Source of the DNA: Acidobacteriota bacterium
GTDB lineage: Bacteria > Acidobacteriota > Terriglobia > Terriglobales > SCQP01
Length of the DNA stretch: 64,000 nucleotides
Assembly (NCBI GenBank): GCA_021818955.1
Contig: JAKASR010000006.1
Location: 78,886 to 142,885 of the forward strand
Direction of reading: 5' to 3'
Shown piece after piece: positions 30,955 to 45,129 of this stretch (position 1 is the stretch's first letter; each line of letters begins with the position of its first letter). Position numbers and translations under genes: made by a program. The notes under the pieces are model-generated. The model was not told the DNA's origin. It made no database searches and saw nothing but the letters and a program-made list of their open reading frames with translations.

Positions 30955-31145
30955 CTTAACGTCAATGGCCAAGTCGGGCAGCAGTTTATATCCGGGATGG
31001 CAGGCCGAAGCGCGGGGTGTCTTTTAGGCCCCGCGTGTGTTTACGCCAAAATATTTTCAGTATCCATGGGTTTACGCCATGCGTCCGGTTTCGGCCGGAC
31101 CCTTGCGAAAGCGTCAGCGCCTAAAAGTAAAAGCGGCTGTGCCGC
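30955..31145 (+). repeat. composite repeat, modules A-C-E (copy 9)
   Basis: Diverged A (CTTAACGTCAATGGCCAAGTCGGGCAGC), C (GCAGGCCGAAGCGCGGGGTGTC...), a linker, and complete E ending GCGGCTGTGCCGC. It has the same layout as copies 2 and 17. It runs into the DUF2844 reading frame. Confidence 0.87.
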
Positions 31146-31599
31146 TCTGCGGCGCTTTGGCTTCATCCTCTGCCTGCTTTCCTTGCCGGCTTGGGCGGTG
31201 CTGGGCCAATCCGCCGCCAGCCTGAAAACGGATCAAGCCGTCTTGCACAGCCGCTGGACCATGGTGCGGCACGCCACCTACACTGTGGCCCGCTTGCATG
31301 CGCCTGATGGTTTGAGCGTGGAGGAATACATCTCGCCCGCGGGCTTCATCTTCGGCCTGCAATGGCGTGGCCCGCATCCACCCGATATGTCCGCCCTGCT
31401 GGGCGCGTATTTTGCCGAATATCGCCATGCGGCCTCGAGCTTGCGCCGCCATTTTGGCCCCTGGATTCTGACCACCGCCCATCTGACCATCAGCATGAGT
31501 GGACACATGCGCGCCTTCCGGGGCAGCGCCTGGGTGAATGCGTTGCTGCCGCCCGGCATGCGCCTCGCCGGTAGCCGCTTGGTTCGCAACGAATCTTAA
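31066..31599 (+). CDS. DUF2844 family exported protein; N-terminus overlaps repeat
   Basis: From ATG 31066 the product is 177 aa. Residues 1-27 (MGLRHASGFGRTLAKASAPK...) are translated repeat module E, followed directly by a signal-peptide-like segment (LRRFGFILCLLSLPAWAVLG). The mature domain matches DUF2844 in pattern: ASLKTDQAVL, VEEYISPAGFIFGLQWRGPHPPDMSALLGAYFAEY, and the end RGSAWVNALLPPGM. The ancestral start cannot be placed; only non-ATG codons remain between the repeat and the hydrophobic stretch. The gene is followed after 5 bases by DUF3443, the usual neighbour of DUF2844. Function unknown. Confidence 0.75.
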   Translation: MGLRHASGFGRTLAKASAPKSKSGCAALRRFGFILCLLSLPAWAVLGQSAASLKTDQAVLHSRWTMVRHATYTVARLHAPDGLSVEEYISPAGFIFGLQWRGPHPPDMSALLGAYFAEYRHAASSLRRHFGPWILTTAHLTISMSGHMRAFRGSAWVNALLPPGMRLAGSRLVRNES

Positions 31600-31604
31600 T
31601 CTTT

Positions 31605-32834
31605 ATGTCAAATACTCCCTCTCGCAGCGCTTATTTGTCGGGTCGAACGCGCGCGGCTTTGGCCATGACCTGGACCCTGCTGGCCGCCCTGCTGGCGGCC
31701 GGTTGCAGCAGCAACGCTTCCTCCAACTCTGCATCCGTGAATAATGTGCAAGCCATTGCCGTTAACGCCGGTCCCGCTCAAAATTATGTGGATGGCGCCT
31801 TTACCAGCGTAAAAATCTGCGCTCCGGGCAGCACCAGCAACTGCCAGACGATTAACGGTGTGCTGGTGGATTCCGGCTCTTCCGGCCTGCGCCTGCTGGC
31901 TTCAGCCGTTTCCTTGTCTTTGCCCATCCAGGCCGTCAACTCCAATCAGATTGGCGAATGCCTCCCGTTCGTTAGCTTCTATACCTGGGGGCCCATCGAA
32001 ACCGCTGATATTTACCTGGCTGGCGAAGAAGCGCCCTCGGCCGCGGTGCAGATCATTGGCGATAGCACCTTTGCTTCCGCCCCTTCAGCTTGCACCAGTG
32101 GCGGCACTACCGGCATCAGCACGCTTTCCGATTTGGGCGCGAATGGCATTCTGGGCGTCAGTGTGTTCCAGCACGACTGTGGCGCCGGCTGCACCCTTTC
32201 CGGCGGCTCCAATCCCAATATTTATTTTTCCTGTTCCGGTTCCACTTGCACCGCCACCTCGGAGCCGCTGGATAGCCAGGTGCAGAATCCGGTCGGTCTG
32301 TTCGCGCAGGATAACAACGGCGTCATCCTGCAATTGCCCACCGTGAGCGCCAATGGGGCTGCGACCGTGAGCGGCAACATGATCTTCGGCATCGGCACGC
32401 AAAGCAATAACACGCTCGGCTCGGCTACGATCTTTCCCACCAATTCGCAGGGCGATTTTACCGTGCAGTACAATGGCCAATCGTATGCTTCCAGCTATAT
32501 TGATAGCGGATCGAATGGCATCTTTTTTCTTGATTCCAGCACGGCCGGAATCCCCACCTGCCCCAGTCCAAACGCTAGTTTTTACTGTCCCGCCAACACC
32601 CAGAATTTAACGGCTACGAATGTAGGAAACGACGGCACCTCTGGCGCGGTTAACTTCAGCATCGCCAACGCCAATGACCTGTTCAATACCGGCAACACCG
32701 CTTTCGACAATTTAGGCGGTGTCAACTCCGGCAGTTTCGATTGGGGTCTGGCGTTCTTTTTCGGCCGCAAGGTTTATACCGCCATTAACGGCCGTCCGGC
32801 GGGAAAAGCCACGGGACCATATTGGGCGTATTGA
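31605..32834 (+). CDS. DUF3443 family lipoprotein, pepsin-like motif pattern
   Basis: A 409-aa lipoprotein with the lipobox LLAAGC (Cys34). Family features are NAGPAQNYVDGAFTSVKIC, paired Cys and LLASAVSLSLP. Two Asp-Ser-Gly motifs, VLVDSGSSGLRLL (Asp89) and SYIDSGSNGIFFL (Asp300), together with ANGILGVSVFQ (about 179-190), resemble the two catalytic DTG/DSG sites and the GILGL segment of pepsin-fold aspartic proteases. A bilobal protease fold is therefore plausible, although the family is annotated as unknown as far as I am aware. It lies just downstream of DUF2844 and is probably co-transcribed. The surface location is inferred from the lipobox. Confidence 0.8.
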   Translation: MSNTPSRSAYLSGRTRAALAMTWTLLAALLAAGCSSNASSNSASVNNVQAIAVNAGPAQNYVDGAFTSVKICAPGSTSNCQTINGVLVDSGSSGLRLLASAVSLSLPIQAVNSNQIGECLPFVSFYTWGPIETADIYLAGEEAPSAAVQIIGDSTFASAPSACTSGGTTGISTLSDLGANGILGVSVFQHDCGAGCTLSGGSNPNIYFSCSGSTCTATSEPLDSQVQNPVGLFAQDNNGVILQLPTVSANGAATVSGNMIFGIGTQSNNTLGSATIFPTNSQGDFTVQYNGQSYASSYIDSGSNGIFFLDSSTAGIPTCPSPNASFYCPANTQNLTATNVGNDGTSGAVNFSIANANDLFNTGNTAFDNLGGVNSGSFDWGLAFFFGRKVYTAINGRPAGKATGPYWAY

Positions 32835-44699: not shown

Positions 44700-45129
44700 G
44701 GGAACTCGCGCCGCGGCTATAAGCCGGATTCTGTAACCCGCTCCGGTTGAAGCGGGCCGGCAATCATTCCTCTGGGCCGGACATTGCTGTCCGGCTCTAG
44801 CAACCTACCCGAGAGTCAGACCGCCCCTCCCGTTGTGCGGGACAAGCGGAATGGGCCGGGCCGGCCCGTCCTCTCCTATTTGGTCTTGCTCCGTGTGGGG
44901 TTTTCCCTGCCTTCGCCGTCGCCGGCGAAGCGGTGCGCTCTTACCGCACCTTTTCACCCTTATCCCGGCGTGCCGGGACGGTATGTTTTCTGTGGCACTG
45001 TCCGTCAGCCGGCTTTCTGCTGCCGGCCGCCTGGCCGTTAGCCAGCACACTGCCCGGTGGAGTCCGGACTTTCCTCCCCCGACCCCTTGCGGAATCAGGA
45101 GCGATTGCCCGCCGCCGCCGCGAGTTCCC
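44700..45129 (-). ncRNA. rnpB: RNase P RNA, bacterial type A
   Basis: On the minus strand the hallmark sequences appear in order: GAGGAAAGTCCGGACTCC near the 5' end, GGGCAGTGTGCTGGCTAACG, GTGAAAAGGTGCGGTAAGAGC, AAACCCCACACGGAGCAAG, GGGTAGGTTGCTAGAG, and ACAGAATCCGGCTTATAG at the 3' end. The ends were set by the P1 helix, where 5' GGGAACTCGC pairs with 3' GCGAGTTCCC. It is the ribozyme that matures tRNA 5' ends. The neighbouring tRNA-Leu is on the opposite strand. Confidence 0.95.

Follow-up and report, generated by a model that had tools for sequence, protein, structure and literature searches.

A predicted pepsin-like fold in DUF3443, a bacterial lipoprotein family encoded beside DUF2844

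Does the DUF3443 lipoprotein encoded in this 64,000-nucleotide stretch of DNA (the window) belong among the pepsin-fold aspartic proteases, and what part might be played by the small DUF2844 gene beside it? Our analysis makes it likely that DUF3443 is an envelope-anchored, two-lobed aspartic endopeptidase of the pepsin fold with a dedicated periplasmic partner, DUF2844. The gene (31605..32834, + strand, ATG start, 409 aa) is covered by the Pfam profile PF11925 over profile positions 2-367 of 367 (E 6.1e-130), a full-length match that scores 433.9 bits against a curated cut-off of 25. An NCBIfam search with the protein gave no match, and a chance match to DUF4156 (E 0.02-0.03) was dismissed.

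The preliminary description had claimed a pepsin-like motif layout, and the elements were found where it had placed them. The first catalytic motif, Asp89-Ser-Gly-Ser-Ser (31869..31883, + strand), follows VLV and is the predicted equivalent of pepsin Asp32, judged by conservation and by its hhalign pairing with the DTGSS of bacterial pepsins. The second, Asp300-Ser-Gly-Ser-Asn (32502..32516, + strand), follows SYI 211 residues further on and is matched to pepsin Asp215 by its conservation. GILGVSVF (32145..32168, + strand), which had been placed about 90 residues past the first Asp, is found at residue 181, 92 after Asp89, and is identified by alignment and hhalign as the hydrophobic-hydrophobic-Gly psi-loop element of lobe 1. 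The hydrophobic-Gly psi-loop element of lobe 2 is DWGLAFF (32739..32759, + strand), recognised in the alignment, where the columns NGILG and DWGL[PA]FF provide one such element per lobe. Phe122 (31968..31970, + strand) is the putative equivalent of the pepsin flap Tyr75; it is conserved, lies on a beta-hairpin in the model and is placed by hhalign onto the flap Tyr of L077, a shewasin-like bacterial A1 peptidase. The window holds 150 open reading frames of at least 150 codons; apart from this gene, none carries a pair of D[ST]G[ST] motifs and one carries a single such motif.

Homologues were gathered from the genome collection and by profile searches of Acidobacteriota and of genomes holding four proteobacterial loci. 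An alignment was made of 58 of these, with 37-76% identity to the window protein, chosen on overall similarity and not on the Asp motifs. The AF2 model built on this alignment has a pLDDT of 95.6 and a pTM of 0.93. When it was compared with the PDB by Foldseek, all 50 matches listed were aspartic proteinases (E about 1e-11), including endothiapepsin, BACE1, penicillopepsin and rhizopuspepsin. VIA-align, for which models without a clear match typically peak at Z 7-8, matched it to Irpex lacteus proteinase (1wkr; Z 24.3, rmsd 2.9, 279 aligned residues), with porcine pepsin at Z 21.9 and endothiapepsin and rhizopuspepsin at Z about 22; the alignment spans residues 8-372 of the model and 1-329 of the chain, the whole of the target. 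The model strands 43-52 and 255-262 (model numbering) run up to Asp89 and end just before Asp300, respectively, in psi-loop-like fashion. Structure prediction and fold search, the check that had been proposed, thus gave a model that is pepsin-like over its whole length, and a two-lobed pepsin fold with both catalytic Asp residues is predicted with high confidence for DUF3443.

At the sequence level the relationship is very remote, at the edge of noise. No match at E 10 was found in a PDB sequence search with either the protein or the 58-member profile, and PF00026 matched neither the protein nor the homologues searched. Profile comparison by hhalign with three shewasin-like bacterial A1 peptidases (L077, L081, L082) gave E 0.006 and a probability of 6%, in an alignment that, as expected, sets VLVDSGSSGL against VLLDTGSSTL, Phe122 against the flap Tyr and NGILGV against GGILGL; six bacterial A1 peptidases from two groups, compared in the same way, gave a weaker result than these three. 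When the profiles of the two DUF3443 lobes are aligned with one another, their Asp motifs coincide exactly (P 0.05), and two homologues weakly match aspartyl-peptidase Pfam profiles over lobe 1 (PE-PGRS_C, E 8e-4; Asp_protease_2, E 1e-3). Because no PF00026 match, no PDB match and an hhalign probability of just 6% were obtained, we place DUF3443 in a family of its own within the pepsin fold rather than in A1 itself. Bacterial pepsin homologues had been called rare, in keeping with the occurrence of PF00026 in 1 of 297 Acidobacteriota genomes and in 7 of the 398 sampled from the phylum that holds the Paraburkholderia genome G297.

Compared with the eukaryotic enzymes (endothiapepsin, pepsin, BACE1), DUF3443 shares the whole-chain fold (Z 21-24), the lobe order and the dyad, whereas identity in the structural alignment is 10-18% and no attached pro-segment is seen in DUF3443. 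With shewasins A and D and other bacterial A1 peptidases it has in common two lobes, two D-[TS]-G motifs, hydrophobic-hydrophobic-Gly elements and a flap Tyr or Phe (PMC2761423; PMC4814920). The Asp-to-flap spacing is 33 in the window protein and 32 in several Shewanella and Colwellia members, and the Asp-to-Asp distance of 211 lies inside the 190-358 of the bacterial A1 table (PMC2761423). These A1 enzymes are, however, cytoplasmic and have no signal peptide. DUF3443, in contrast, is a lipoprotein that is exported, has conserved cysteines and comes with a paired gene, and sequence profiles barely connect the two groups. A second comparison is with mycobacterial PecA and the C-terminal domain of PE_PGRS16 (PF20729), which, as predicted for DUF3443, represent an exported bacterial aspartic protease with DTG/DSG motifs (PMC6819658). 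The PF20729 profile is the one matched by a DUF3443 homologue at E 8e-4; the PecA/PE_PGRS16 structure was absent among the 50 VIA-align matches listed. Unlike DUF3443, PecA leaves the cell by type VII secretion, carried by a PE domain, and no lipid anchor or DUF2844 is reported for it (PMC6819658).

The window protein begins with a signal sequence (31605..31706, + strand) that ends at the lipobox LLAAG-Cys34 (Cys codon 31704-31706), the combination that defines a bacterial lipoprotein. A lipobox was found in 64 of 68 homologue frames and is usually followed by a Gly-rich tether. Of the statement that the protein is surface-anchored, this lipoprotein signal supports the anchoring; the anchor could lie on either membrane face. 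There are ten conserved cysteines, and their absences come in sets that fit the pairs 192/196, 210/215 and 319/328; this loss in pair-like sets suggests that the cysteines form disulphides and that the protein leads an extracytoplasmic life. DUF3443 would cross the membrane by the Sec pathway, receive a lipid on Cys34 and be held by a flexible Gly/Ser-rich linker, with up to five disulphides to stabilise it. For PecA the cleavage sites are pairs of small residues within linkers, and the enzyme cuts itself too (PMC6819658); by analogy, and as a guess, DUF3443 might release itself by cutting its own Gly-rich tether.

The pairing with DUF2844 that had been claimed was confirmed in the window and well beyond it. 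The upstream gene (31066..31599, + strand; likely ATG at 31066) matches PF11005 (E 2e-31), encodes a small protein predicted to be exported and mature from about position 31198, and ends 5 bp before the DUF3443 start. DUF2844 is present at 68 of the 69 DUF3443 loci fetched, some of which are copies of the same gene. At the exception, L052 of genome G411, the DUF3443 gene looks to be split across two contigs, since an N-terminal DUF3443 fragment adjoins DUF2844 on another G411 contig. A 4-nt overlap, typical of translational coupling, occurs in 22 of 66 pairs, and the median nearest-start gap is 4.5 nt; DUF2844 lies downstream of DUF3443 rather than upstream at L009 and L022. Of 200 genomes sampled from the order to which the window belongs, 36 carry DUF3443 and 35 of these also DUF2844, the 36th having just a DUF3443 fragment with a stop. 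Among 150 genomes of the order around G297, DUF3443 was found in 15 (14 above the cut-off) and both genes in 13. DUF2844 alone was found in none of the 200 and none of the 150 (0 of 350 over both samples). In genome G938 DUF2844 was not detectable, and plasmid copies of DUF3443 in Caballeronia and B. vietnamiensis adjoin a TAXI-type solute-binding protein, with no annotated DUF2844. The plasmid DUF3443 genes of L075 and L076, which come after a gene for a TAXI-type TRAP solute-binding protein and have no annotated DUF2844 as neighbour, represent a second lineage of the family.

DUF2844 has no lipobox, and its model (pLDDT 88.6) is a compact predicted domain of helix, four strands, helix and strands. 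Foldseek gave no match for it at E 0.001, and the best VIA-align match, Z 7.7, is within the range of chance. PepSY/BLIP-like domains have the same order of helix, four strands, helix and strands, and appear as weak VIA-align rows (DUF2874 proteins, and the YpeB C-terminal domain at Z 5.3). Such an identity has no backing from Pfam profiles, and a fold assignment was dropped because the fold searches gave no firm match.

DUF2844, a small alpha/beta protein that would be co-translated with DUF3443 and exported, is most likely a periplasmic binding partner of the enzyme, as inhibitor, folding helper or chaperone, or trans-acting pro-domain. We prefer such a role as regulator, chaperone or trans pro-domain to that of dedicated substrate, a less likely option, because shewasins have no pro-segment (PMC4814920) and an enzyme that is exported would have to be kept in check. 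A more specific and tentative suggestion, which we hold to be rather less than probable, is that the function of the pepsin pro-segment, to give a folded but silent enzyme, has been moved onto the separate, co-translated periplasmic DUF2844. We know of no split pepsin system of this kind.

The strict pairing and the coupling would suit a protease and its substrate as well as a protease and its inhibitor, and PecA, which cleaves co-secreted proteins as well as itself, offers a precedent for DUF2844 being a dedicated substrate that the DUF3443 protease processes (PMC6819658). This we nevertheless consider unlikely, given that one dedicated substrate beside each of six paralogues in a single genome would be unusual and that the partner is predicted to be a compact domain.

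Conservation bears on whether DUF3443 is itself a catalyst. Neither Asp89 nor Asp300 varies across the 58 aligned homologues, which answers the question raised at the outset about these two residues, and among the 20 acidic residues of the window protein that the alignment covers, Asp191 is the only other one to be identical in all 58. Ser92 and Gly302 are likewise identical in all 58, and Gly91 in 54. The flap site Phe122 is Phe in 57 and Tyr in one, and according to Rawlings and Bateman bacterial pepsins have either Tyr or Phe there (PMC2761423). An invariant Trp-Gly lies within the peptide FYTWGPIE used for searching, so that its invariance is slightly favoured for loci found in this way. 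Arg96 is also invariant, at a place that we take to be that of Trp39 in pepsin (pepsin numbering). Ser303, at the position of Thr218, is of the acidic-enzyme type, and the residue is Ser or Thr in all 58 homologues; it predicts little, as shewasins with Ala at this position are still active at acid pH (PMC4814920).

If DUF3443 does catalyse, Asp89 and Asp300, one from each lobe, would activate a water molecule for general acid-base cleavage of a peptide held in the envelope under the flap that bears Phe122. A pepsin fold alone is no proof of such activity. Plant xylanase inhibitors (TAXI) have the fold without proteolysis, and DUF3443 could in the same way be a binding protein or pseudo-protease whose cleft holds a peptide or glycan. 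Some members do deviate: DTA replaces DTG in lobe 1 of four Paraburkholderia homologues (Ala for Gly91), and DLG stands in lobe 2 of one homologue, so that some members could be impaired. In a divergent Paraburkholderia relative (L042, 976-2079, - strand) the first DTG is kept, in ALDTGTQG, and the likely second site has ATG, in FATGNSG; it is possibly an inactive cousin, and such cousins seem to exist. We nonetheless regard a non-proteolytic role for the family as quite improbable, since the retention of both Asp residues, the Ser after the first D-x-G and a Phe or Tyr flap in every one of the 58 homologues, at this range of identity, is hard to explain without catalysis. Extremely improbable is a chance resemblance of motifs in a beta-rich, low-complexity lipoprotein, a reading that draws on the shortness of D-S-G-S and the Ser/Gly-rich composition of the protein and is contradicted by shuffling (two hydrophobic-D[ST]G[ST] motifs in 6 of 20,000 shuffles), by the invariance of both Asp residues and by the whole-length fold.

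Exported bacterial aspartic proteases as a kind are already known, from PecA (PMC6819658) and the retropepsin-like enzymes of Pseudomonas (PMC12239564). No paper mentioning DUF3443 or DUF2844 was found in a literature search; Plasmodium papers retrieved under their Pfam accessions were set aside, as a P. falciparum gene name merely starts alike. As far as the literature searched goes, with structure-based annotation such as Pfam clan assignments outside that search, no pepsin family has been described that is two-lobed, anchored by a lipid and paired with a near-obligate partner, and DUF3443 very probably forms a new branch among the aspartic proteases anchored in the envelope. It is present in many Acidobacteriota and Burkholderiales, where a genome can hold as many as six or seven copies. 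If the assignment is true, it adds to the few exported pepsin-like enzymes of bacteria and bears on whether bacteria have had two-lobed pepsins from early on or borrowed them from eukaryotes. An orphan family gains a testable enzyme hypothesis with named catalytic residues, and a second one, DUF2844, found only beside it, gains a first lead.

Several further features of these loci were noted. The four Paraburkholderia homologues with DTA (L010, L013, L015, L019) also lack two of the cysteine pairs, and L042 has a weak TAXi_C match near its end. The Paraburkholderia genomes G297 and G298 (L037, L041, L038, L040) have six or seven DUF3443 matches, some in tandem DUF2844-DUF3443 cassettes. In the window, a rhomboid intramembrane protease gene (PF01694; 32899-33729, - strand) faces the DUF3443 gene, and GC-rich inverted repeats (CGCGGGG...CCCCGCG and GTCCGG...CCGGAC) lie at 31000-31120, upstream of or at the DUF2844 start. 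An Rfam scan of the whole 64,000 nt gave no match upstream of the gene pair, the inverted repeats included, and located a bacterial RNase P RNA of class A at 44703-45120 (- strand).
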